This document shows, piece after piece, positions 87-61,488 of a stretch of 64,000 nucleotides of DNA. Source of the stretch: Acytostelium subglobosum LB1 (taxonomy: Eukaryota; Evosea; Eumycetozoa; Acytosteliales; Acytosteliaceae); assembly GCF_000787575.1 (NCBI RefSeq), contig NW_012236504.1, positions 417,050 through 481,049 of the forward strand. The letters are read 5' to 3'. The notes below the pieces were generated by a model, which was not told the DNA's origin, ran no database searches, and saw only the letters and a list, made by a program, of their open reading frames with translations. Position 1 is the stretch's first letter. Each line of letters starts with the position of its first letter. A program made the position numbers and the translations under genes.

Positions 87-2351
87 TTAAATAGATCTTA
101 GATACTCAACCATCAGGAGATGTCCTCTCTCGTAGGCTTCTTCAAACAGTCTTGCCATCGTAACATCCATGTTGGGAAGAAGAAGATGGTCCATGAAGTA
201 TTGGAGACAGACTGCTGCCTTGTATCCACGATCCATGGCTGAGGCACAGCACCCAGGCAAGTGACTTTTGGCATGTACCGTGAGACTATAGATAACTTGT
301 CTTTTATCCTCTTTGTCCATTCTATTTATAATACCGACATAGGCCTCCAACATTGGAAGGTGTCCACATGCAATGTATTTAAAGAGTTGGCTTCTGATAT
401 GAGGAAGGGATAGGCGATGGACATGCGATTGAATGATGTAGTCCACCATGTCCGTGTGACCATTCTCAACTGCTTTGTAGAGATCTGACATGATCCACTC
501 TGCTTTGTAGTTTTCAACGATGAATTTGAACATCTCCATATGTCCGTTGATGGCTGCTCTTTCCAATGCTGTTCTATGGCAAATATCTGGTTGGTGTTCT
601 TGAAGGAAGCGAGCAATCTCCAAGTTGCCGTGTTGAGCTGCTTCAATCATCGGACCCTCAGATGATGGAAATTGGACATTGCCAAACATGTTGTAAAAGT
701 CGCGAACCAATGATATGTCATTGAAGCGTTGAATTATGACCGTCAAGGGATTGGTATGATGATTGGTGGTTGGCGCCAAACATCCAGAGTCGAGCAGAAC
801 TCGAGCTTGTTCCGCAGTGCCAAGATATACCATCTCTTGAAGACCAACACGACGTCCAGTCTCTGCAAGTACTGCGAGAACGTCGTGACGATTGCTAATT
901 ATGGCGTTGGCCACCACTTGATCGAGTTTTTGTTTGTTTCGTTCCAATAGTACCCTGATCAGTCTAATGTCCTTGATTAGCATCACCTTTGGCTCCCTCA
1001 ACACGTGTTGATATTCATCAAGTTGTGAATCAAAGAACTTGGTCTTGATGAATTCGAATGTATCCAGTGTCAGACCAGGTGAGAACAGTATGCCATGTCC
1101 ATATTGGATGTTGTCGTACGATGTCAGGCGTCTGAGCAGTTCAATTGAAAGAATTGATTCGTCAATTGTATGATCAATTAGCCAGAGTGGACGTTTCTTG
1201 TCGTCGGCAGCAGTAGACTCACCATCATCAACGTCATCGCCATCGCCCTTTGGAGAGACCAATGGACATTTGTCAAGGATAACAAATGCTACGTCGACAA
1301 AGCCGTGCTGTAGCGCCAATCCGACATGGTTTTGGTAGGTGGCTGGTATTTGATGTTCAATGGCCCATTGTGTGAGCTCAACGTCTCCATGACTGGCTGC
1401 GGTCAAATAGATGAAGTCACCTGGAAGGTGTTGGCGATATCGTTTTGCAAAGAATAGGCCATCTGGTGTCATCAGTGAGTTCAAGAACTCGGTCTTCCTG
1501 TCAAATGAGTAGTAAAAGGCATCTTTGAGATATTTGCTAGTTCTTCCAACGATCGTCTCATGACTAAAGAAGCAGTCAAGGAGAGGTATGTTGTTCATGT
1601 GATCCATCATGATATTGTAAAAGGCGATGTCCACGCTGAAGATGGGTACTGGGCCGCCGAGAAGCTCGAGGAAGTCTGGGAGTTCGTCGCATGTCAGTGC
1701 CCCAACCAACTGATCACGAGCCTGCACGGGTTCGTTCTGGGGTTTGAACAGGTGGCATTGCGAGCGTATTGTTTGAAGCATCTTGAACGACCGGCACCCC
1801 GAGTACATACGGACAACAGAGATAGGCTCGAATTCATTGACGTTGTCAACCTTTCTGCTCCAGACGTCGAGTTGTCTGTTATTGTTGATGAACTCGAGTT
1901 CGGACAGTATAAGGTGTAATATATCATGTCGATCCAGAGTGACTAGATCTTTGATCTGTTTGCAAATGACCAATAAGGTGTCGCGAATGAGATTGTTGTC
2001 TCGGTTGAACTTGAACAGATGTCGCACCACATTGAAGTTGTTGGTGTTGATTGCCACTTTAAGAAGATGACCAAGGTAAGGAGTGTTACCATGAGGATGT
2101 GCCTGGACAAAGACATCAAAGTACTTCATGAACAGGTCAGTCCTGCCATATCGCAACATTGTTGACAGACATCGCTCCTTCTCAAACTGTTCACCTGACA
2201 TGATGTGTGTCAGTGGCACACCTGCTGCCCTCATCAACACGACATGTATCTGATGCACATGATGCATGACATTCAATCGTATCACTCTGCTTTGCAACAC
2301 TGTCTTTAGTAACTGATCTATCTTCATTGTATCATTGTGTTGTTGTTGCAT
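87..2351 (-). CDS. Ankyrin-repeat protein, dictyostelid family (754 aa)
   Basis: Intact single-exon ORF. The N-terminus (residues 1-60, with MHHVHQIHVVLMRAAGVPL) is family-specific. The C-terminal part has degenerate ankyrin units of the type AAQHGNLEIARFLQEH, AAINGHMEMFKFIVEN and AVENGHTDMVDYIIQS at about residues 565-665. Such proteins are usually protein-binding scaffolds; no enzymatic motif is visible. The ATG at 2351 is the first in frame, followed by CAACAACAACA. A decayed copy of the same gene lies in opposite orientation at 16154-18437, which supports the reading frame along the whole length. It is divergent from the membrane-protein gene at 2558, with the 21-bp inverted repeat between them. 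Cellular role unknown. Confidence 0.85.
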   Translation of the reverse strand: MQQQHNDTMKIDQLLKTVLQSRVIRLNVMHHVHQIHVVLMRAAGVPLTHIMSGEQFEKERCLSTMLRYGRTDLFMKYFDVFVQAHPHGNTPYLGHLLKVAINTNNFNVVRHLFKFNRDNNLIRDTLLVICKQIKDLVTLDRHDILHLILSELEFINNNRQLDVWSRKVDNVNEFEPISVVRMYSGCRSFKMLQTIRSQCHLFKPQNEPVQARDQLVGALTCDELPDFLELLGGPVPIFSVDIAFYNIMMDHMNNIPLLDCFFSHETIVGRTSKYLKDAFYYSFDRKTEFLNSLMTPDGLFFAKRYRQHLPGDFIYLTAASHGDVELTQWAIEHQIPATYQNHVGLALQHGFVDVAFVILDKCPLVSPKGDGDDVDDGESTAADDKKRPLWLIDHTIDESILSIELLRRLTSYDNIQYGHGILFSPGLTLDTFEFIKTKFFDSQLDEYQHVLREPKVMLIKDIRLIRVLLERNKQKLDQVVANAIISNRHDVLAVLAETGRRVGLQEMVYLGTAEQARVLLDSGCLAPTTNHHTNPLTVIIQRFNDISLVRDFYNMFGNVQFPSSEGPMIEAAQHGNLEIARFLQEHQPDICHRTALERAAINGHMEMFKFIVENYKAEWIMSDLYKAVENGHTDMVDYIIQSHVHRLSLPHIRSQLFKYIACGHLPMLEAYVGIINRMDKEDKRQVIYSLTVHAKSHLPGCCASAMDRGYKAAVCLQYFMDHLLLPNMDVTMARLFEEAYERGHLLMVEYLRSI

Positions 2352-2391
2352 GTTTGTGTGTGTGCGCGAAGATGTGACTCATTCGCATATG

Positions 2392-4833: not shown

Positions 4834-5566
4834 ATGTCAAAGCTATTAAAGTTGGTTATTGTTGGAGATGGAGGTGTTGGCAAGTCAGCACTCACCATTC
4901 AATTGACACAGAATCAGTTCATTGCCGAGTATGATCCAACCATTGAGAACTCTTACCGCAAGCAAGTGGTCATCGATGAAGAAGTCTACATGCTCGATAT
5001 CCTAGATACTGCCGGTCAGGTATGAATACGATCACTTGATCACTCAATCACATCGATCACTCGATCACATCAATCATGGAATCATTCCATCATTCAATCA
5101 TTCCACCACTCAAACACACTCAATCAGTCAATCATGGAATCATTCCACTCACTCAATCAATCAATCAAACAATATGTAGGAAGAGTACTCAGCGATGAGA
5201 GATCAATATATTCGCTCTGGAAGAGGATTCTTGATCGTTTATAGCATTGCCTCGAGACCGAGCTTTGAAGCAGTGACATCGTTTAGGGATCAGATTCTGC
5301 GAGTTAAGGATTTGTCGACATATCCAATGGTGATCATTGGTAACAAGGTCGATCTGCCAGATAAGGAGCGCAAGGTCAGCACGCTGGAGGGCAAGGAGTT
5401 GTCCAAGAGCTTTGGAGCGCCATTCTTGGAGAGCAGTGCAAAGTCACGTGTCAATGTCGAGGAGGCCTTCTTCACGCTGGTTCGCGAGATCAAGAAGTGG
5501 TCCACCAATCCAGAGAACCAGGAAATGACACATACAACCAAGAAAAAGTCATGTATCATCCTTTAA
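4834..5566 (+). CDS. rasC: Ras GTPase, RasC orthologue (190 aa)
   Basis: Exons 4834-5019 and 5180-5566, joined at CAG|GTATGA...TAG|GAA inside DTAGQ/EEYSAMR. All small-GTPase motifs are present: P-loop GDGGVGKS (residues 10-17), switch [12 protein letters not shown], switch [21 protein letters not shown] and ESSAK. The C-terminus is CIIL, a CAAX box ending in Leu that predicts geranylgeranylation. Near identity to what I recall of D. discoideum RasC, including FEAVTSFR and [15 protein letters not shown], supports the assignment. In D. discoideum RasC acts in chemoattractant signalling upstream of TORC2 and cAMP relay. Glycine at the codon-12 equivalent is wild type. It converges with the PDE gene on the other strand. 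Confidence 0.95.
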
Positions 5567-5737
5567 AACAAGTATCATCATCCTTATATCGTTCGTTCGT
5601 TCGTTTGTTCAAACAATCCACACAACCATCAAGACATCGTCACGGCAGCAGTCAACACTCTAGGCAGCTGGCATTCAACTCAACTCCCCTCCCTCCGCAA
5701 CTATATACTACTCTCCTACTCTCTACTCCTCAACTGG

Positions 5738-5810
5738 CATGACCCCGGTCAGATCTGATAACAAAAGGACAAACCTTTTTTGTCTGTCTCCAAGCGATAC
5801 AAGGGTCATG
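5738..5810. other. Nested inverted repeat downstream of rasC
   Basis: Outer arms CATGACCC (5738-5745) and GGGTCATG (5803-5810) are exact complements, and CTGG/CCAG just outside them can also pair. Inside is a GACAAA/TTTGTC hairpin. It lies about 170 bp after the rasC stop codon, so it may be a 3' UTR stem or a small RNA. No ACCATAA-type box is seen in front. Confidence 0.4.
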
Positions 5811-6158
5811 TCCCCTCCAGCAATATTCATCCAACCTAACCAAACTTGATTGATCACCTTGGACAACAAACATCATCAATGAGTATCAAACCATGTCTAA
5901 TACGATATGAAATATTCAGAGATGACTTTGTGATCACGACTATCAACAAGCAACCCTCAATCATCCAATCATTCAATCAACCATTCACCAACCAAGTGTA
6001 CATTTACAGCCAGTCAACAAGGAGTACGAAGTAAACTTCTTCTTTAATCAACTTTGTCTGTCTCTTTTATTCCCAAAACTCTGAGATTTATTGATTGATT
6101 GAGTGTGAGATCACATTGATCGTTCCAAAAAAAACAGTATTATTCCAGAAAGAAATAG

Positions 6159-6165
6159 ACCATAA
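6159..6165 (+). promoter_or_regulatory. DUSE-like box (ACCATAA)
   Basis: ACCATAA ends 60 bases before the class I RNA candidate at 6225. Dictyostelium small-RNA genes carry an upstream element recalled as ACCCATAA at about -60. The same word at the same distance precedes the second candidate at 14044. Confidence 0.5.
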
Positions 6166-6224
6166 TTATTCTATTGATCAATTTAATTAAACTTTATTAA
6201 CTATTATGTATATTAAGTCCAACA

Positions 6225-6274
6225 AGGTCTCATCACAGCAACCAACATCGTGAAGAACAATTAGTCAGAGACCT
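6225..6274 (+). ncRNA. Candidate dictyostelid class I RNA (copy A)
   Basis: Closing stem AGGTCTC (6225-6231) pairs exactly with GAGACCT (6268-6274). Next to the 5' arm is CATCACAGCAA followed by CCAAC. The recalled class I motif is CCTTACAGCAA, so 9 of 11 bases match. Size (50 nt), stem plus adjacent motif, variable loop and the DUSE-like box 60 bases upstream fit the family. It lies in the 3' flank of the PDE gene, antisense to it. Alternative: a chance hairpin in a 3' UTR. Confidence 0.6.
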
Positions 6275-6335
6275 GTTCTATCAACCAACCCATCAATTAA
6301 TTATATTATTATTTTATATTATTAGAAATATATTT

Positions 6336-7865
6336 TTATTTAGTCGTTTCGAGGTTTGATATATTGTTCCATGTTCTAATGTTCTCTTGGAGATGATCAA
6401 GACAACTCTTGGTCTGTGGGAACAACTCAACCATTTGACTAAAGAATGGCTCACCAATGTATATCATAAAGTTGAGGGAGTTCTTGGCTACGGTGGTCTT
6501 GGACTCGTCCATCCAGTCGGTCGTGGGGATGCCCAGCTCCACCTCCTTCTTGCCCTGCAGGAAGCTCTCGTGTCCAATGCGCTCGCACCACAACTTTGAG
6601 ATATCCCATGGTTTGGCAATGTTGGAGATGTCGGCCGCGTGCAGGATCAGCTCCATGAGGAACTGGCGATCTTGAGAAGTGCTGTTGATGTACTTGAACT
6701 GGTTCATCTTCTGCTCGGTGACCTTTTGTTTCAGCTTGGTCACCAGGGGAAAGTGCAGGGACATATCTGTGGCGATGATCGAGTTGATGATTGATGTGCG
6801 GAACTCCTTCTTCTCGTCCCACTTCAAGTTCTTGAGGAATTGGAACTGGTCCAACAGGGTCCACATCAGCTGAATGTGATGGTTCTCCAAAACTGACTTG
6901 TCGTTGTACTGGATGGCCAGTGGGTCGAATGTATTGACTAAGAATGCGTTGTTGTAGCCGGGATGATTGAGGTCGTGGCACAGTCCGCTCAGCAGCAGCG
7001 CGATGATGTCCAGATGAGTGAGATGCTTGCCAAATCCAAAGGTAGTGAGGTATGTGAATATTGTCTGAGTGACATCGAATGCATGATAAAAGTTGTGATA
7101 TGAATGGCTGTGATATAGTTGTCTAACATGTATAATAAATTGATTCAACTTGATATCGGATATCTTCAACTTCTCTGGCATCTGATAATACATAAACATT
7201 GATTGTAACATTGATATCAACTGTTCATCAGAATGATTGAATGGGTCATATCCCCAAACTTTCAGATGTTCAATCTCCTTATTCAAATTGAACAATGTAC
7301 AATGATTCGAAGTCTTATGTACCATCAAGTCATTATTACTATATGTCTTTAAAAGTGATCTAGCAATCTATAGATTGATCAAACAAATTAGTATATATTT
7401 TTGGAATATAAATAATAATTAAATACTTACTGGATTGAGATCAACTTGATTACTTATTTGATTGGCTGATGGACCGTAGAGGTCATTGTTGGATGATATT
7501 TGAATGAGGATGTTTTCCAACTCTTTCTTGAGTGTTGGGTTGGTGGCATTGAGTGATTGATCCGAGATAAGCTCGGACAGTGAATTGGTGATTGATTCCA
7601 GAGGTGACTCCATAATGACCTTGTGTATCAGCATCTTGTTGTTGTCCAACTTTAATTGACCGACTTGATTCTTTAATAATTGTATCTCTCGCTCTTTCTC
7701 CCTCACTAACTGTTCATAATGATTAAGTCTGTCATCTGTTGTCGTCGAGTTTGATGAGTTATGATTGTGATGATCATTCAAATGATTGGATTGTCTCTTC
7801 TTCAATTTAAATATAACATTATTTAGGAAATTATCCTGGTGATAATTTGATAATGTTGCATTCAT
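6336..7865 (-). CDS. pde3: Class I cyclic nucleotide phosphodiesterase, PDE3-like (488 aa)
   Basis: Two exons, 7431-7865 and 6336-7367, joined at CCA|GTAAGT...TAG|ATT; phase 0. The N-terminal 145 residues hold a probable coiled coil (YEQLVREKEREIQLLKNQ). The catalytic HD-type PDE domain follows with HNFYHAFDVTQ, CHDLNHPGYNN and LHAADISN, which supply the metal-binding His/Asp residues. There is no response-regulator domain (as in RegA) and no membrane segment (as in Pde4). By elimination among the class I enzymes I recall from Dictyostelium it is closest to Pde3, described as cGMP-specific. The start at 7865 is the only ATG in exon 1 upstream of the coiled coil. Substrate preference cannot be read from the sequence. 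Confidence 0.85.
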
Positions 7866-12957: not shown

Positions 12958-13780
12958 ATGATGAACATAGCATTGACAGGTTCTCGTATGTTCTCTGTTC
13001 GTCAGAGGGTTAGGAGTATCATATCACCGATGGTGATCATTCATAGTAGATCAATGTCATCAACATCAGGGAGAAAGAATATCTTTGAAGATGACGACGA
13101 TGATGATGATAATGGTAGAGATAACAAACAACAACAACAACAACGTATACCCAACAATCAATCATCATCACAACAACAACAACAGAGTCATGTGACATAT
13201 CCGATTGTCATGCCTACATTTAAGCCGCGAGGTAGTAACTTCATGACCCCGAGACGTCCACCTAAGCAGCCAGATGCAATAGTACTGACAAAGGAGGAGA
13301 TTGATTATATGTATGTTACCGAGTGATGAAGAAGGTTGTGATACATACACACATACTGACCTCGATCAATCAATCAATCAAAGAGTTGAACATGATGTAC
13401 CAAAGCCTAAAGAGATAAGGAATATATTATTGGAGGATGATGAGGATGAGGATATCAATTCAAACTCTACTTTGAATCTAAACAATATGAACTCGACAGA
13501 CGCAGCAGACAAGAAGACATCAGAGGCATTTGATGAGGTGGCAGGCATGAAGTTTGAAAGTCTACTAAAGATGATCTTTAAGAATAAGAGGACGGGCGAG
13601 TTGGATCTGGACCAGGAGGACATCGAAGAGTTGGAACGTATGATCACTCAACAGTCTGCTGGTGGTGGTCTATACACTGTCGATCCAAATATGCAGGCAC
13701 ATCAACAACAACACCAACAGCGACGACAACAACAACATCTTCAAAATAGTAGTAATAGTACAGATACAGATAAACGATGA
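12958..13780 (+). CDS. Gln/Asp-rich protein with mitochondrial-type N-terminus (249 aa)
   Basis: Exons 12958-13310 and 13384-13780 (750 nt), joined AT|GTATGT...AAAG|AG. The N-terminus (MFSVRQRVRSIISPMVIIHS) is Arg/Ser-rich without acidic residues, as in mitochondrial presequences. It is followed by an acidic run, poly-Gln, a conserved-looking YPIVMPTFKPRGSNFMTPRR, and a helical segment (FDEVAGMKFESLLKMIFKNK). No family recognised; a mitochondrial ribosome or assembly factor would fit but is not shown. Divergent from the gene at 12796, 161 bp apart. Confidence 0.7.
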
Positions 13781-13975
13781 TGATTAATGATGGATGGATA
13801 GATACACATGTCCATCAATCATGTAAATAATTCAATGCATCCAGTTTCAAATGTTCCATTGACATACTTTTATGAATGAAAGTTGGATTGATTGAATGAT
13901 TGATCGAATGGATACAATATGATTGATGATCGTGGGAGTACCTACCTACCCAACCCAAGGGGCACCTTGGACATC

Positions 13976-13982
13976 ACCATAA
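13976..13982 (+). promoter_or_regulatory. DUSE-like box (ACCATAA)
   Basis: Ends 62 bases before the stem of the class I RNA candidate at 14044. Identical in sequence and nearly so in distance to the box at 6159-6165. Confidence 0.5.
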
Positions 13983-14043
13983 CCAATCCAGGAGGTTATG
14001 GAGTTTTTGTTCAATTACAATCATTGGATGATTGACCATCTTG

Positions 14044-14125
14044 AGGTCCTCTTACAGCAACCAAACAAACGTATCCTACAAAACTTAAATGTCTGGAATA
14101 GATAATGCACATACCCAGGGGACCT
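14044..14125 (+). ncRNA. Candidate dictyostelid class I RNA (copy B)
   Basis: AGGTCCTC (14044-14051) pairs with GGGGACCT (14118-14125) through one T-G wobble. TCTTACAGCAA (14050-14060) matches the recalled class I motif CCTTACAGCAA at 10 of 11 positions and is followed by CCAAAC, as in copy A. Length is about 82 nt, longer than the 42-65 nt I recall for D. discoideum. Sharing AGGTC, ACAGCAACCAA and the upstream box with copy A makes chance unlikely. Confidence 0.65.
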
Positions 14126-14515
14126 GTCTTCTTATACCATTTTATTCCATCTCCATCAGTCTGATCACTATCCATCCTCAATCACACAAAAGCTTGGATT
14201 GATCGTACACAAAACGACCAAACTCTCAAAAAAGTGACAAAGTGAAGAGAAACGCATAAACTTCGTCATTCTCCTCCACTCAATCATATAATTAGTGTAT
14301 TAGTGTATTTGTATAGTTTGTTATCGTGATAAGAGGTACGTCTACAGTGCACAGTGTCATTACATATGATTGATCGAACGAACGAATGAATGAACGAACG
14401 AATGAACGCGAATGAATGAAGTACTAATACATCAAACTTGATCAATCGACAATGTTGAATATTATATAGCTCGCGATACAGAAACAGAACAACAACACGA
14501 CAAAGTAGGACAATC

Positions 14516-15717: not shown

Positions 15718-16153
15718 CTTATTGTTGTGCTTGTCTAATACATACATATATAAATATACACACAAACAGGTCATCGAGTTCAACGCATCCATCTATGTTA
15801 AGGTGTGGACATCACATGGCACCTTCTCCTTCATTGTATCATAATGGCATTCAATCATTCATTCATTCAAACAAGACAACCCCAATGATGACATCAAAGA
15901 AAGCTGCCTGGTGGCTGCATTAATACATCAATTAATAATACAGCTACAAGTTATTGTATTTGTTTGATCGTTACATGTACCTTGGGATATGTTTGATGCA
16001 CAATTACTTTTCTTCAAACTTGTTGGCCACGACAAATGAGCATCGGGATTCCCTTGATCAATCAAATCAGTTGTTGATAATCATAATTTAGTTATTGTAG
16101 ATAGATAATGGTACTTGAAGAGGAGCAGACTGCAGACATCGTTGGGTTGACAA
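15718..16153. other. Intergenic region
   Basis: No gene seen. Bases 15765-15845 are of coding-like composition but without a start; likely the 3' UTR of the Bet1-like gene. Confidence 0.5.
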
Positions 16154-18437
16154 TTGGAAACCATACAACAACAACAATGCAATAATACAAGGAAGATAGA
16201 TCAGTTAGTAAAGAGATTGTTGCAAAGCAGAGTGATACGAGTGATCATCATGCATCATGTGCATCAGATACATGTCGTGTTGATGAAGGCAGCAGGTGTG
16301 CCACTGACACACATCATGTCAGGTGATCAGTTTGAGAAGGAACGATGTCTGTCAACAATGTTGGGATATGGCAGGACTGACCTGTTTATGAAGTACTTTG
16401 ATGTCTTTGTCCAGGCAAAGCCACAAGGTGTCACTCTTCACCTTCGACATCTGATTAAAGTTGCAATCGAGGTCAACAACATCAATGTTGCTCTTCATCT
16501 GTTCAAGTTCAATCGAGACAACAATCTCATGCACGACAACTCATTGGTCATTGCCAAACACATCGATGATGTTGTCAGGTTGGATCGACATGACATGGCT
16601 GAGCTGCTTCTGTCCGAGCTCGAGTTCGCCATCAATGGATCACTCAAGAACAAAAAACAACAGAGGTTGGCAAGATGTACTCGAGTTGCCAGTCTTTCAA
16701 GATGCTTGAGACAATCCACTCGCAATGCCATCTGTTCAAGCCCCTTCACAAATCAGTGTACATTAGTGTCAAGTTGATAAAGACACTGACTTGCAGCGAT
16801 ATCCCAGTCTTCCTCGAGTTACTCCGAGGAAGTACCAAAAACGACAATACCATCTCCAACGTCGTGTTGTGTCACATGGACAACATACCTCTCCTTGACT
16901 GCTTCTTTAGTCTGTGGATGTTAGTGGAAAGCACTCGTAGATGCATCGATGAAAAGATCTTCCCAAGTGTCGATGAATGGACCAACAGGCACCTCAAATC
17001 GTTGCAAAAGCCAGAGGGCATAATCTTTGCACGGATATATCGCCTACATCTTCCAAGCGACTGTATCTACTTTTCCGCAGCTACACATGGAGACCTTGAA
17101 CTGGTTCAATGGGCTATTGAACATCAACTACCAGCCAAAAATGACAGACATGTCGCTGTGGCGCTGCAGCATGGCTTTGTTGACATTGCATTTATCATCT
17201 TGGACAAATGCCAACTTCGCGATTGCGATTACCAGTTCTCATTGTATTACACATTAGATTATCTTCGATGGCTACTAGATCGTCCAATTCACGACTCCAT
17301 ATTCTCGATGGAGCTTCTTCAACGACTGGCATCGTACGGCAACATCCTATTTGGTTGGGAAATGCTACTCTCACCTGGTCTGACACTGGACACATTGGAA
17401 TTCATCAAGGCCAACCTCATTGGTTCACGAACTTATCTTGACCCAAACAGATTCAAGAGGATGCCAGAGTTGTTTTTGGTCAAGGACATTACATTGCTCA
17501 AGGATGTTTTTGAACTAATCACCTTGGATCTTGGTGACATGATGGTGCGCGCCCTCATCCGCAGGCGTCCCGATGTTTTCACAGTACTTGCAGAGACTGG
17601 GTGTCGTGTTGGCCCTGGGGCTCTATCATCTCTTCACTCTGTTGAGAATGTTCACGTACTGATCGACTCTGGATGCTTGGAGCAAGAACCCACGCAATAT
17701 TATAACAATATCCTGAAAATCATCATTGAACGCTACTACGACATATCATTAGTACGCGACTTTCACAACAAGTATGGCCGTGTCTATGCCCATACAAATG
17801 AGTCAAACTCAAGTTCTACTCCTGTAATGGAGTATGCAGCTCGACATGGCAACCTGGAGATTGTACGCTTCCTCCACCAAAACCTACCATAAGTTATGAT
17901 AAATTCACTTTGAATGAAGCAACCTATAGTGGAAACATTGACGTGTTCCAATTCATCAAGGACAACTATACAATGAAGTGGAGCATGCCATATCTCTACC
18001 AATCTGTTGAGAAAGGACACACAGACATGGTGGATTACATCCTTCACTCGCATGTCCATCTCCTGACCATCCCTGATTACATTGAAACATACTTTCACAA
18101 CGTTGCATGTGGACACCTTCCAATGTTGGAGGCCTATGTCAGTTTGGTAACTCGCATGGACAAAGAGAAAAAAAGAAAGGTTGTCGAGATCCTCGCCAAT
18201 AGGGCACGTAACTTGACTAGTTACTATACCTCAGCCATGGATCGTGGATACAAGGTAGCAGTCTGTCTCCAATACCTCATGGACAATCTTCTTCTTCCCA
18301 ACATGGATGTTCCAATTGCGGAACTGCTTGAAGAAGCCTACGAGAGAGGACATCTCCTGATGGTTGAGTATCTATCTAAACTCCATTCATCCACAACCAT
18401 CGCCACCACCCAACCAACCAACCCAATAAAGAATTGA
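16154..18437 (+). pseudogene. Decayed inverted copy of the ankyrin gene at 87-2351
   Basis: Similar to the first gene over its whole length: VIIMHHVHQIHVVLMKAAGV, DQFEKERCLSTML, then LLDCFFS and DMVDYILHSHVH. Three defects are visible. The homologous start codons are lost (AGG AAG ATA where the intact gene has ATG AAG ATA), leaving an in-frame ATG only at 16250. A frame change occurs between about 16655 and 16675. A second occurs near 17886 (CTACCATAAG), where deleting one base would restore the frame. Three separate ORFs result (to 16777, 16675-17892, 17910-18437). A sequencing error could explain one break but hardly all. Confidence 0.8.
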
Positions 18438-22843: not shown

Positions 22844-24193
22844 TCATTCTTTATAAAAGAATCGCAAGATTCCTCGTGATTGCTTCTTTGGTGGTTCGAT
22901 GGGACGAGGACGAGAATAAGTTATAAAGTATAATCTATCATGACCCTCCCTGTGAAGGAATAGTGCAGTGTTGTTATCAATCCATCGACAGTCGGCAATG
23001 TTATTACATCTCAAATCATACTGTCTATAGGTTTCGACAAATGGAGCTTTGAGGTGCAGAAACTTGAAGTATTTCAATGAGTAAACAATATTGGGATTAC
23101 TTTCATATATCAGAGTCTTGATTCGTAAGTTCACCAATGGAGATAATTCCCAAGCAGTCTGGCAGCGCACTTCGACCGTATCCAAGTTGCTCAATGAAGT
23201 CGAATTTGCCAAATCAGTGAGTTGCTTCAGCGTGAAGACAGACAAGTTCTTGAGACTGCTTGGAAACAAAACATCACAGCTTGATTGTGCAAAGTCGGAG
23301 GATTTTTTCGATGCTCTTGCACGCTGAGATTGCAACAGCATGTCCTCCAGGCGATCAATCACCAATGACTCCAGTATCTCTGGGTTCCATATAGACTCAG
23401 AGTCGTAGTTGAAGCTTTCTCCAAAGCTTATTGATGTGATAGACTCTGGAAGGCAACCCGCCAACAACTTTTGGTTGAAACTTTCACCAAATACAATGGT
23501 TCTTAGTGACAGAGGAAGAGATCCATTAATGATCTTTTGATTGAAACGGTTTCCTAAGACCAAGGTTTGAAGTGTTGTGGGCAAGACACCAAGTTGGATC
23601 ACTTTGTCATAATTAGAGCCGAAGAACAATGATCGAAGTTTAGGTGGTAGTGAGCCTGGTGGAATCACTCCATTGAAATCTGGACCAAACATTAGGAAAC
23701 GCAGTGATCTAGGAATAATGCTCAACACATTGGTTTGTTGATGATATGCACCAAGTATGAGTGACCTTAGCTTGGGTGGAAGTGAGCCAGTATGAAATGT
23801 GAACTCTCTCGCTGAGTGGATAGTCAGTGTCCTGAGTGACTTGGGCAACATGTCCACACCAATATCTTGATGAAACTCTGAACCTAGTGTCAGTAGAGTT
23901 ATTGAGTTTGATGAAGCCAAATGAATTGGCAATTGTACAAGGTCTTGAGTATAGTAGTAGTGCTCTGGATCTCTATAATGATCAAGATAGCCTTTCTCTT
24001 TTACAGCACTGATTGTGCTGCTGTTGACTCTGCTCCAATCACATGTGTAATGACCTTTCGACCATGTGAACCCTTTCATATTGCTCAGTACCGAATACCA
24101 TCTTTTACAAGAGAGTGATAAGCAGACTATATCCAACTCATCGTTCAAATGCATATATATCGATCTACCTATAATCTCTGATATATTATCCAT
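22844..24193 (-). CDS. FNIP-repeat protein with F-box-like N-terminus (449 aa)
   Basis: Single exon. Start chosen at 24193 (MDNISEIIGRSIYMHLNDEL), which aligns with the starts of two other FNIP genes in this window; an upstream in-frame ATG at 24289 adds an unlikely hydrophobic stretch. Residues 1-45 look like a degenerate F-box (CLSLSCKRWYSVL). Residues about 110-290 contain FNIP repeats, such as GNRFNQKIINGSLPLSLRTI and FGESFNQKLLAGCLPESIT. FNIP proteins are a large dictyostelid family of mostly unknown role; F-box-like ends suggest ubiquitin-ligase adaptors. Confidence 0.85.
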   Translation of the reverse strand: MDNISEIIGRSIYMHLNDELDIVCLSLSCKRWYSVLSNMKGFTWSKGHYTCDWSRVNSSTISAVKEKGYLDHYRDPEHYYYTQDLVQLPIHLASSNSITLLTLGSEFHQDIGVDMLPKSLRTLTIHSAREFTFHTGSLPPKLRSLILGAYHQQTNVLSIIPRSLRFLMFGPDFNGVIPPGSLPPKLRSLFFGSNYDKVIQLGVLPTTLQTLVLGNRFNQKIINGSLPLSLRTIVFGESFNQKLLAGCLPESITSISFGESFNYDSESIWNPEILESLVIDRLEDMLLQSQRARASKKSSDFAQSSCDVLFPSSLKNLSVFTLKQLTDLANSTSLSNLDTVEVRCQTAWELSPLVNLRIKTLIYESNPNIVYSLKYFKFLHLKAPFVETYRQYDLRCNNIADCRWIDNNTALFLHREGHDRLYFITYSRPRPIEPPKKQSRGILRFFYKE

Positions 24194-24417
24194 TGTTGTA
24201 TTATCTGTTAACAAAATTATTACAATGAATGATTGAATAAAGTGAAGAGAAGCCCCTTTCAAAATATAACTTTGATCATTGTTGACCATGAACCGTATTC
24301 ATTGAAGTAAGTCAGACAAAGATAATAATAATGTACAGTGCAATAATTGGGGAGTTTATTGATCGATCGCTGTTTGAGTGAACAGGAGCAACTATCACCT
24401 CCTCTCTAGAGGGAGAC

Positions 24418-50239: not shown

Positions 50240-50739
50240 TAAAGTTGGATATATATTATGATCAATCAATCAGTCAATCATCCTGGCTATCCATCCAGAG
50301 GCATCCAAGTAGAATGTCCAGTGTACTACATAACTATCACCCAGAGAGAACCCCCCATCTTTTGATCAAAAGTGTGTGATTGATTGATCAGTGCACTTCC
50401 GTGTGTGATTCAGTTGATCAATCACACATACACTCACACACTCAACAACAACAAACACACCAACAACAACATCAACAACGAATATCACATGATCTGCCTT
50501 CATGTTGTTGATGAACAATGAGTGCCCTTTTGGTACCCAAGAGGCCACCCAAGGCCACAACTTACCAACTTAGCAAGCATTTAATTTGTTGCGATGCGGT
50601 TTGTTCACTACCTGATCAATGAAGGGATGCGAGCTACAGTGATAAAGAGCGATGATGGTGTTCATCAACTACCATTTCTCATTCATTCATTCATTCAATC
50701 AATCACTCAATCAATAATACAACAATCATAGTTTAAACT
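50240..50739. other. Intergenic region
   Basis: CAAT and CACA repeats; nothing gene-like. Contains the tight AT-rich region immediately before the FNIP gene. Confidence 0.6.
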
Positions 50740-52512
50740 ATGGATAAACTACCAATTGGTATAATCAAGTTACTTATAACATATCTTGATGACAGGTTGG
50801 ATGTTGCCAGTTTGGCATTCGTGTCCAAAGGTCTATACAGGATCAAGTCAATCAGCCAACTCAATCATCTCAATAATAGTACCTCAACATCATTATCATC
50901 ATCATCATCAATAGCCATAACAAGGAGTTGTGTTAGTGTTAGATCACCATCAGTTTATACCAGGGAAGATGGATCAATTCCAAATATTCCAGTATTATCA
51001 AGATATGGTCATCAGAATCATCCAATTGCACCAAATAGTATACCATCGACTGTGACATCATTACACTTTCATGATCACTGGGATCAACCTATCGAGCCAG
51101 GTGTAATCCCACCTTTTATCCGTCATCTATCATTTGGAAACAGTTATAACAAACAATTGGACGTTGGAGTGTTGCCCGCGTCATTGACCACACTCGCCTT
51201 TGGCTCATCATTCAATCAAGAGCTGATCTGTAACAGCCTCCCCCAAAGCCTGACCTCGTTGACATTTGGATACTTCTTCAACACTTCGATCAAACCAGAT
51301 ATGCTGCCTGGATCACTCCGAACGCTGGTACTTGGCTTCCACTACGCCTCCAAGATTGAGCCTCACAGTCTGCCCAAGTCACTTACCCATCTCAAGTTTG
51401 GCTCGCGATTCAATCAATGCTTGGAGCCGTATGTGCTGCCCCATGGATTGACATCACTCGAGCTTGGACACAGCTACGACCGACCCATTCAGCCTGGTGT
51501 CCTCCCTCCAACCATTACCAAAGTATCGTTTGGCTTCAAATTCTGCCAAACTATATACCCAGACACATTACCATCATCCATGCGTGACATATCATTCGGG
51601 TTCAACTTCAATAGACAACTCGAACTTGGTGTGTTGCCAGCATCCCTTCACTCCCTGAATATGGGCTCATACAACCATGAGCTCGCGCCAGGTATACTGC
51701 CAGACTCTGTCACCAAGCTCATCATCGGCGCACCATTCAATCATCTGATCCCAATCGGCAGCCTTCCGTCGTCCCTCAAAGAGCTCTACTTTGGGTTCGC
51801 ATTCAATCAACCTTTGAGTCCTGGTGCCCTGCCATCATCCCTATCAACCCTAAAGCTTGGAAACAATTACAATCAATGGATACCACCTGGTGCGCTACCA
51901 TCCAGCCTCACCGATCTACGCTTTGGCAATCAATTCAATCAACCATTGTCCATTGGTGTTCTCCCCGCATCACTTGCCCGCTTGGAGGTAGGCCTGTTCT
52001 TCCATCAGAAGGGCAGTGGTGCAGTTCTACCCGCATCACTCAACACAATATCAATGCACAACTTCATGTTGCAACGTTGTTTGATCGAGTCCGCCACGCC
52101 ATCAAGCATCACAAACGTTATAATCAATCATAACAAAAAGACCAAGTTCATACAGAAGGAAGGGTTCCTCGCCAGACTGGTACAATCATTCATTGGACAC
52201 AGACGACTATCAAGTAGTGTTAGGAGCATATCATTCATATTTGGTCACATTCAAATCGATGCAATCAATGAGTATATACACTCGATACAGAGTCATAATG
52301 ACAACGGATCAGGAAGATTAGTCAGTCTACACTTCAAACTCAAGGGCAAGGACAAGATGTCACGCGAGTTCAGTTCAAGAGTCCTCGGAGACAACGACTA
52401 CCTCTACCTAATCGATGGCGATGTAGTCCACTCACGGAAACTGATCAACACCATCACTGTCAGTGCGATCCAGAGTTCAATATTCATGAAGACTGTAGTC
52501 CAAACCAACTGA
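50740..52512 (+). CDS. FNIP-repeat protein with F-box-like N-terminus (590 aa)
   Basis: Single exon. Residues 1-40 (LPIGIIKLLITYLDDRLDVA then SLAFVSKGLYRI) are F-box-like. From about residue 100 to 430 there are some fourteen FNIP repeats of about 22 residues, such as FGSSFNQELICNSLPQSLTS and FGNQFNQPLSIGVLPASLAR. The C-terminal 150 residues have no repeats. Poly-Ser near residue 55 is encoded by TCATCA triplets. Probably an adaptor protein; partner unknown. Confidence 0.9.
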   Translation: MDKLPIGIIKLLITYLDDRLDVASLAFVSKGLYRIKSISQLNHLNNSTSTSLSSSSSIAITRSCVSVRSPSVYTREDGSIPNIPVLSRYGHQNHPIAPNSIPSTVTSLHFHDHWDQPIEPGVIPPFIRHLSFGNSYNKQLDVGVLPASLTTLAFGSSFNQELICNSLPQSLTSLTFGYFFNTSIKPDMLPGSLRTLVLGFHYASKIEPHSLPKSLTHLKFGSRFNQCLEPYVLPHGLTSLELGHSYDRPIQPGVLPPTITKVSFGFKFCQTIYPDTLPSSMRDISFGFNFNRQLELGVLPASLHSLNMGSYNHELAPGILPDSVTKLIIGAPFNHLIPIGSLPSSLKELYFGFAFNQPLSPGALPSSLSTLKLGNNYNQWIPPGALPSSLTDLRFGNQFNQPLSIGVLPASLARLEVGLFFHQKGSGAVLPASLNTISMHNFMLQRCLIESATPSSITNVIINHNKKTKFIQKEGFLARLVQSFIGHRRLSSSVRSISFIFGHIQIDAINEYIHSIQSHNDNGSGRLVSLHFKLKGKDKMSREFSSRVLGDNDYLYLIDGDVVHSRKLINTITVSAIQSSIFMKTVVQTN

Positions 52513-59481: not shown

Positions 59482-59655
59482 TGTTATGTATTTGTTTGTT
59501 TGCTACACGTCAACACGTTGTGTTTGTTTCTTGGTATTGAGCACTAGTGGGGTGTGTGAGAATAAGACGAGGCTGAGGCCATGACTTGAACTTTCGCTTC
59601 AACTCATTAAAATACATTCGTTTGGATATCTCCAACAAACAAATAATAATATTTA

Positions 59656-61488
59656 ATGGATAATATACCAATAATAATAATAAGAAGAATATTTAATATA
59701 TTGAAAGATGAAGATTGTTATGTTGATTTAGTAAGTTTGGGATTTACTTCCAAACGTTTTATGATAGAGATACATAATAGATGGAATTTAAAATTAAATA
59801 AGATACCAAAGATATCAAAAGAGTTAACAAAAAATATTAAATCTTCAGTAGAGTCATCTATATTTGATGAGCAGGACAAAGAAGTACTTGTACATAATCA
59901 TAACAAACTTGTCAAATTTCCCTACTCTATTACATCACTCACTCTTGGTCAAAGGTTCCAACAGACCATCACATCAAACATATTTCCATCCTCACTCACC
60001 TCGTTGTCATTCAAAGGCGACTGTGTCCTAGACTTGGCCTACCTTCCAAAATCACTCAAGACCTTGGATCTCTCAAACAAATTTAACCAGCTACTCAAGC
60101 CAGGGGAGCTACCTTCAACATTAACTTCTCTCTCCTTTGGACACGAATTCGACAATGAGCTGTTGCCCGGGGTCCTTCCACAATCACTCTTATCTCTTTC
60201 ATTTGGCTGTCGTTTCAATCAAACTCTTCAGCCTCGATCACTCCCTTCCTCATTGACCAACTTAAACCTAGGTAGTTCACCATTCACATCTGGACTTAAT
60301 GGCATGCTACCGGCACTCATCAAACTAGTGATCGGGTGTGGATTTGGGTCCAATGCACCATTTACCCCTGGCATAATACCTTCAACAGTTCAAACTTTGG
60401 TGATTGGAAATAATCAATATCAGAATTTCAGTTATGGATTCCAGAGTGGTGAGACACCCGATTACTACATTCCCGACTCAATCACCGATTTGACATACAA
60501 CGGATCACTTAGAGTTGGTTTGATACCAAACTCGGTTACCAATCTGACATTCAATTGTTATAGATTCGGGGGAGCGATCGAAACTGGCTACATTCCCGAA
60601 TCAATCACCAGATTGGATTTTGGTCACAATTTCAATTGGCCTATTATCAAAGAATGTCTACCGTCATCAATCAAGACACTGATGTTTGGAGACCTTTTCA
60701 ATAATTACATTGAACCGGGGGCGCTCCCTAAGTCACTAACATCCTTGAGATTTGGATATGGATTCTCAAGAGACATTTTGATTGGAGAACTGCCTTCCTC
60801 AATCAACCATTTGGAATTTGGCAATATCTATTACAATGGATTCGCAGTTGGTGTGTTGCCTACTTCACTCAAAACAATGATCCTAAGAGCTAGCCAAATA
60901 AGACCCATCAAGTTCTCTGGCAAGCTTAACTTTCTTTCTATACCATCACTGCTCCATATCCAGAACGTTCATTGTCAAGTGGATCATCTCATATTGACAA
61001 AATTGGAATTGAGGGACATTTCCAAAATGCCAACAATCCTTCCAGTGACAATACCGATCAAGACATTGAGTGCAAGTGCCCCTGGAAGAACATTCAATAA
61101 GCGAGCACAATTCATCAATGAGATCATCCGAGTCTCTCCCAATGCAGATGTATATAACTTTACCATAACAAAGGCCAAAGGTGATTGGACCATTCAATTT
61201 CGCAAGATTGAAGGGCACTTGTTATTAAGTGTCACCAATCACCGAACCATTGAATTCTTCAAAATGAATGTACCAAAAGAGATCAAAGCAGAGGAGTTGA
61301 TACAACAGTTAACAATGGAGAATGACTCACTCAAATCTCAGTTGGCCGAAGCAAATGCCAAGTTGGCTGAGCTTATCGGAGTCGGCCCTTCCACATCCTC
61401 AGACAATGATGAGGACAGCTCTGAACCTGAGCCTGAGCCCGAGCCACCAGTCACCAAGAAGGCAACAGCCAAAAGAACCAGTAAATAA
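59656..61488 (+). CDS. FNIP-repeat protein with coiled-coil tail (610 aa)
   Basis: Single exon. The F-box-like N-terminus is IIIRRIFNILKDEDCYVDLV. FNIP repeats run from about residue 90 to 420, such as FGHEFDNELLPGVLPQSLLS and FGDLFNNYIEPGALPKSLTS. A coiled coil (ELIQQLTMENDSLKSQLAEA) and an acidic Glu/Pro tail (SEPEPEPEPPVTKK) end the protein. The first 70 codons are very AT-rich (AATAATAATAAG), unlike the rest. Role unknown. Confidence 0.88.
   Translation: MDNIPIIIIRRIFNILKDEDCYVDLVSLGFTSKRFMIEIHNRWNLKLNKIPKISKELTKNIKSSVESSIFDEQDKEVLVHNHNKLVKFPYSITSLTLGQRFQQTITSNIFPSSLTSLSFKGDCVLDLAYLPKSLKTLDLSNKFNQLLKPGELPSTLTSLSFGHEFDNELLPGVLPQSLLSLSFGCRFNQTLQPRSLPSSLTNLNLGSSPFTSGLNGMLPALIKLVIGCGFGSNAPFTPGIIPSTVQTLVIGNNQYQNFSYGFQSGETPDYYIPDSITDLTYNGSLRVGLIPNSVTNLTFNCYRFGGAIETGYIPESITRLDFGHNFNWPIIKECLPSSIKTLMFGDLFNNYIEPGALPKSLTSLRFGYGFSRDILIGELPSSINHLEFGNIYYNGFAVGVLPTSLKTMILRASQIRPIKFSGKLNFLSIPSLLHIQNVHCQVDHLILTKLELRDISKMPTILPVTIPIKTLSASAPGRTFNKRAQFINEIIRVSPNADVYNFTITKAKGDWTIQFRKIEGHLLLSVTNHRTIEFFKMNVPKEIKAEELIQQLTMENDSLKSQLAEANAKLAELIGVGPSTSSDNDEDSSEPEPEPEPPVTKKATAKRTSK

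Follow-up and report, generated by a model that had tools for sequence, protein, structure and literature searches.

Do the stem and the short sequence motif found at positions 14044 to 14125 belong to a class I RNA gene, or are they ordinary sequence elements that happen to lie side by side? The question concerns an intergenic region in a 64,000-nt stretch of DNA that was analysed as a whole and is called the window hereafter. Class I RNAs of dictyostelids are defined by a stem of about 6 bp joining the two ends of the RNA, an invariant first G, an 11-nt motif next to the 5' half of the stem and a variable middle part (PMC7919456). In the same survey, which covered 16 dictyostelids, the AA preceding the first G is described as highly conserved and the CTGT end as almost perfectly conserved. 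The genes are intergenic, with several per genome and more than one per region, and carry a DUSE promoter element about 60 nt upstream. T runs follow many of them, and transcription by RNA polymerase III (Pol III) has been suggested (PMC7919456).

Family assignment and parts of the candidate gene

Judged from its sequence, the plus-strand segment 14045-14127 is very probably a class I RNA gene of a dictyostelid. The predicted gene and its parts are as follows.

13976-13982, plus strand: ACCATAA, a DUSE-like promoter element of the two-C form; 62 nt separate it from the conserved G
14045-14127, plus strand: probable class I RNA gene (predicted RNA), with the RF01414 match and CTGT at 14124-14127; the RNA may start 1-2 nt further upstream
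14045-14050, plus strand: 5' half of the end-closing stem, GGTCCT (pair probabilities 0.99-1.0)
14050-14060, plus strand: 11-nt class I motif TCTTACAGCAA, 10/11 letters, near-invariant positions 5/5 (T3, C6, C9, A10, A11)
14119-14124, plus strand: 3' half of the end-closing stem, GGGACC, pairing with GGTCCT
14140-14143, plus strand: TTTT, 12 nt beyond the end of the predicted RNA; it may serve as a Pol III stop

The initial annotation had proposed a search with the class I covariance model as a check and had named the lack of any hit as a refuting outcome; with the Rfam cut-off lifted, a hit was obtained, so this outcome did not occur. The Rfam model RF01414 (Dicty_Class_I_RNA) matches 14045-14126(+) over its full length (positions 1-56 of 56) with 32.3 bits and a span of 82 nt. 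It is the top Rfam match at the interval and, by both score and E-value, the top one of the 16 Rfam matches with E-values up to 10 in the whole window, although it stays about 9 bits under the Rfam gathering score of 41.5. The E-value is 0.035 for the whole window (64,000 bases × 4227 families) and 0.00022 for the 401 bases around the locus. No family passed the Rfam cut-offs when the whole window was scanned with them; being below 41.5, the locus would thus be left unannotated by Rfam itself. The score clears both thresholds used in PMC7919456 (at least 25 for the model alone, at least 15 in combination with the DUSE), which were set on the authors' own model and serve here as a guide only. 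Compared with the 56 positions of the model, the predicted RNA has extra length, which falls in the middle part. Two other Rfam matches were rejected as chance hits: a match to RF00611, a snoRNA family, at 14195-14278(-) (20.4 bits, cut-off 46, E = 0.46), and a match to HBV epsilon (14.5 bits, cut-off 45, E = 6.3). The latter covers a short perfect hairpin, CCAAGGGGCACCTTGG, at 13955-13970, just 5' of the DUSE.

The reading of this locus as a class I RNA, already put forward in the initial annotation, is supported by the RF01414 match, the first G, the stem, the 11-nt motif, the CTGT end, the distance of the DUSE and the intergenic place. The stem had been given correctly: AGGTCCTC at 14044-14051 pairs with GGGGACCT at 14118-14125, and the folding prediction has 14044-14052 paired with 14117-14125. 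The first G, at 14045, is the opening base of the family's six-pair stem. The motif does have the 10 matching letters out of 11 that had been claimed for it; it shares two letters, the first two, with the stem, so that it does not come directly after the stem as had been described. The ACCATAA reported 62 bases upstream is where it was said to be, with bases 13983-14044 lying before the conserved G. Published rules for the 5' and 3' ends would place the RNA from about 14043-14045 to 14127, that is 83-85 nt including the final CUGU. The earlier estimate was about 82 nt, for a family median of near 60; such a length is not odd, since members of 82 and 85 nt have been published (PMC7919456). The conserved first G and the CTGT end were absent from the initial annotation, which had also missed a second locus at 6226-6276.

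Immediately before the first G the locus has GA, not AA, and the CTGT end is kept. This departure from the AA rule would fit a silent class I copy, right in sequence and unexpressed, and PMC7919456 does report candidates that score highly yet are not expressed; these have no DUSE in the proper position. The DUSE is at the right distance in both loci of the window and the stem is complete, which argues against silence, and we regard this explanation as highly unlikely. The GC content of the predicted RNA is 42.2% at 14045 and 45.1% at 6226, for a published range of 32-41% (PMC7919456). Nothing at 14045 clearly departs from the class I family. The feature is most likely a member of a family already known, and one already listed, because the gene would be expected in the 2021 list if the genome is among the 16 surveyed.

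Tests against chance and a second locus

Might a stem simply have come together with an 11-mer and a 7-mer that are both common, with no RNA made? Taken one by one, the parts are indeed at chance level. With at most two mismatches allowed, the window has 16 copies of the 11-nt motif (14.0 expected), the copy at 14050 being the only one with as few as one mismatch, and ACCATAA occurs 10 times (11.3 expected). The fold energy of the 86-nt stretch at the 14045 locus is ordinary (z = -0.42), with 72 of 200 shuffles folding as well. The Rfam scores under the curated cut-off also speak for chance; by its score alone, the 6226 locus has an E-value of 3.8 over the window.

The combination behaves differently. 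We searched both strands of the window and of 1000 dinucleotide-preserving shuffles for a full rule consisting of the motif, the stem, the CTGT end and a CCATAA 55-67 nt upstream; this rule was drawn up after both loci had been seen and the paper had been read, and its motif limits (at least 9, 8 or 7 letters) are our own. With at least 9 of 11 motif letters and six of six stem pairs, two loci are found in the window and none in the 1000 shuffles. The outcome is the same with at least 8 letters and six pairs (two loci; 0/1000). With at least 7 letters and at least five pairs the window still holds two loci, and 3 of the 1000 shuffles hold one. When the DUSE condition is dropped from the strictest rule, 11 of 1000 shuffles satisfy it. 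A relaxed scan of both strands returned 10 stem-plus-motif rows, only two of which, the 14045 and 6226 loci, have a DUSE in place. The combination of features is therefore far from chance, though its single parts are ordinary. Since it occurs twice in the window and in none of the 1000 shuffles, and since RF01414 is matched over its whole length and the conserved CTGT is present at the 3' end, a chance assembly appears extremely unlikely.

The second of these loci comprises the following features.

6159-6165, plus strand: ACCATAA resembling a DUSE, with a gap of 60 nt to the conserved G at 6226
6226-6276, plus strand: putative second class I RNA gene, 51 nt, with the perfect six-pair stem GGTCTC/GAGACC, the motif CATCACAGCAA (9/11 letters, near-invariant letters 5/5) and the CTGT end; all elements of the full rule are present

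It gives an RF01414 match at 6226-6275(+) with 24.3 bits and an E-value of 0.024 for the surrounding 401 bases. The sequence starts with AAG (6224-6226), so that it follows the AA rule as well as ending in CTGT; a TTTT is found at 6312, 35 nt beyond the end of the predicted RNA. As a candidate gene, the second locus equals the first by the published promoter rule and has the better 5' start. About 7.8 kb separates the two loci, which share a strand and both lie in intergenic gaps. Their RNAs have ACAGCAACCAA, GGTC and GACCTGT in common, and the middle parts and flanks mostly differ.

For a possible third member, we built a model from the two window RNAs and ran it over the window with filters off, the two training RNAs matching by construction. 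No third class I gene was found in the window, because the four remaining matches with E-values up to 10 are weak and without an intact stem (the best has 13.7 bits, E = 0.57). By eye, no class I-like sequence was seen 50-100 nt downstream of the CCATAA-type elements elsewhere in the window (17 of the 19 listed). As only the 14045-14127 and 6226-6276 loci pass the full rule, and none of the 1000 shuffled windows has a single such locus, the window most likely holds two class I RNA genes.

Genomic surroundings

Two plus-strand neighbours leave a gap of 735 bp around the 14045 locus: an ORF ending at 13780 and, from 14516, a gene similar to mitochondrial ribosomal protein S33 (PF08293, E = 8.8e-08). 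No ATG-started ORF of at least 100 aa exists on either strand between 13780 and 14516; the ORFs of at least 30 aa in this gap are six (35-77 aa), three of which overlap the RNA. Upstream of the S33-like gene, a GAAT/GAAC-like tetranucleotide run is seen at 14374-14421. The second locus is flanked by a Ras-family ORF (ending at 5566) and by a cyclic nucleotide phosphodiesterase (PDE) gene at 6336-7325(-), whose stop is at 6336; among the matches listed (60 of 151), a PDB search with this gene returned phosphodiesterases only. The gap from 5566 to 6336 has no ATG-started ORF of at least 80 aa.

With plus-strand ORFs on both sides, the 14045 feature might instead be a structure within an mRNA, either in the 3' UTR of the upstream ORF (which ends at 13780) or in the 5' UTR of the S33-like gene, and not an independent RNA. 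We give almost no weight to this explanation: the second locus, of the same anatomy, faces the tail of the opposite-strand PDE gene, and the presence of its own DUSE and of conserved RNA ends argues for an independent gene. An independent class I RNA gene thus remains the preferred reading of the 14045 locus.

The protein genes of the window fit a dictyostelid genome, as judged from FNIP-repeat proteins and from Q runs in the ORFs. The FNIP-repeat genes are three (22847-24298(-), 50737-52509(+) and 59650-61485(+)), and FNIP-repeat proteins made up 3 of the 7 ORFs in a Pfam scan, picked by eye from 33 stop-to-stop stretches of at least 200 aa. In the dictyostelids that PMC4334915 tabulates, the FNIP-containing family is a large one, with 381 members in Acytostelium subglobosum. 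The GC content of the window is 41.7%, about 3 points under the 45.0% of the A. subglobosum genome (A+T 55.0%); this A+T content is described as remarkably low for a dictyostelid, and the three others with a value in the table have 66.2-77.6% A+T (PMC4334915). Two ankyrin-repeat genes on opposite strands, 90-2378(-) and 16151-18434(+), have nearly identical starts (MHHVHQIHVVLM.AAGVPLTHIMSG.QFEKERC); the plus-strand gene is divided among several ORFs that overlap, so it may have introns or be broken.

Predicted structure and possible function

In the six-pair stems of the two loci, 12 of 12 cells are standard pairs. The two RNAs show no more covariation than shuffles do (270/500), and a comparison of only two sequences proves nothing in this respect. 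The motif itself is predicted to be partly paired. In the 14045 RNA, motif positions 1-3 have predicted pairing probabilities of 0.89-0.99, and positions 8-10 have 0.36-0.51 at 37 C and 0.55-0.70 at 22 C. In the 6226 RNA, positions 3-6 reach 0.83-0.94 at 37 C and higher values at 22 C. The mean over the motif is 0.43-0.51 for the two RNAs at the two temperatures. In most species of the 2021 survey the motif is less structured than the whole RNA (PMC7919456); the partial pairing predicted by folding for both of our RNAs is a point against a fully exposed motif.

Class I RNAs are abundant and developmentally regulated and, in Dictyostelium discoideum, mainly cytoplasmic (PMC7919456). The one class I gene with a loss phenotype described in that source is DdR-21, whose loss disturbs early development; DdR-21 is also the one case tested for Rnp1A, and it was bound. 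The authors put forward two hypotheses, the targeting of mRNAs and the sequestration of protein (PMC7919456). Applied by analogy to the present gene, the second hypothesis would run as follows. The DUSE would direct transcription of the short RNA, perhaps through RNA polymerase III, and the stem would then keep the RNA ends together and present the partly open motif to a protein in the cytoplasm, for instance the RRM protein Rnp1A. In growing cells, abundant class I RNA would hold this protein back, and during development the level of class I RNAs would fall and the protein would be freed. Binding of protein at the motif is favoured because the motif is conserved as sequence and the stem as structure. 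We regard such a sponge mechanism as possible for this gene, though doubtful. A 2026 CLIP-seq study of Rnp1A reported 24 bound mRNAs and no sequence motif, and its main text does not contain the term "class I" (PMC12863306); it neither supports nor excludes the sponge model.

The fruiting body of A. subglobosum consists of a single cell type (PMC11014262). Class I RNAs of this species would therefore be a useful contrast for the idea that links the family to multicellular complexity. The 14045 locus adds little to what the 2021 paper (PMC7919456) covers. The present case shows that the motif, the stem and the DUSE allow class I RNAs to be recognised by eye, and it has yielded a second, nearby candidate gene.

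Comparison with known class I RNAs

Both loci share with the class I RNAs of RF01414 the 6-bp end stem, the first G, the CTGT, the 11-nt motif, a variable middle part, a DUSE at about 60 nt, the intergenic position and the occurrence of more than one gene. They differ from them in scoring under the Rfam cut-off and in a slightly higher GC content, and the 14045 locus has GA in the place of AA. The DpuR-X class I RNAs of D. purpureum (85 nt) are long members like the 14045 RNA (PMC7919456). D. purpureum, however, belongs to Group 4 and its DUSEs have three Cs (PMC7919456), in contrast to the two-C form found here, and its class I stems start with GAATT (PMC3188802) whereas the 14045 stem starts with GGTCC. 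All DUSEs of P. pallidum class I genes have two Cs, and so do the majority of those in A. subglobosum and in D. lacteum (PMC7919456).

The two loci could also form a new pair of class I genes in a dictyostelid outside the 16 surveyed, with their shared motif extension ACAGCAACCAA acting as a lineage-specific binding site; we consider this unlikely. The published AsuR-10 of A. subglobosum LB1 has a predicted length of 82 nt and gave a distinct northern band (Kjellin et al. 2021, PMC7919456), and it comes from a species with mostly two-C DUSEs. The two-C DUSEs, the composition and the FNIP genes make A. subglobosum the probable source of the window, and together with the 82-nt span they make it likely that the 14045 gene is AsuR-10, an identification drawn from length and context only.
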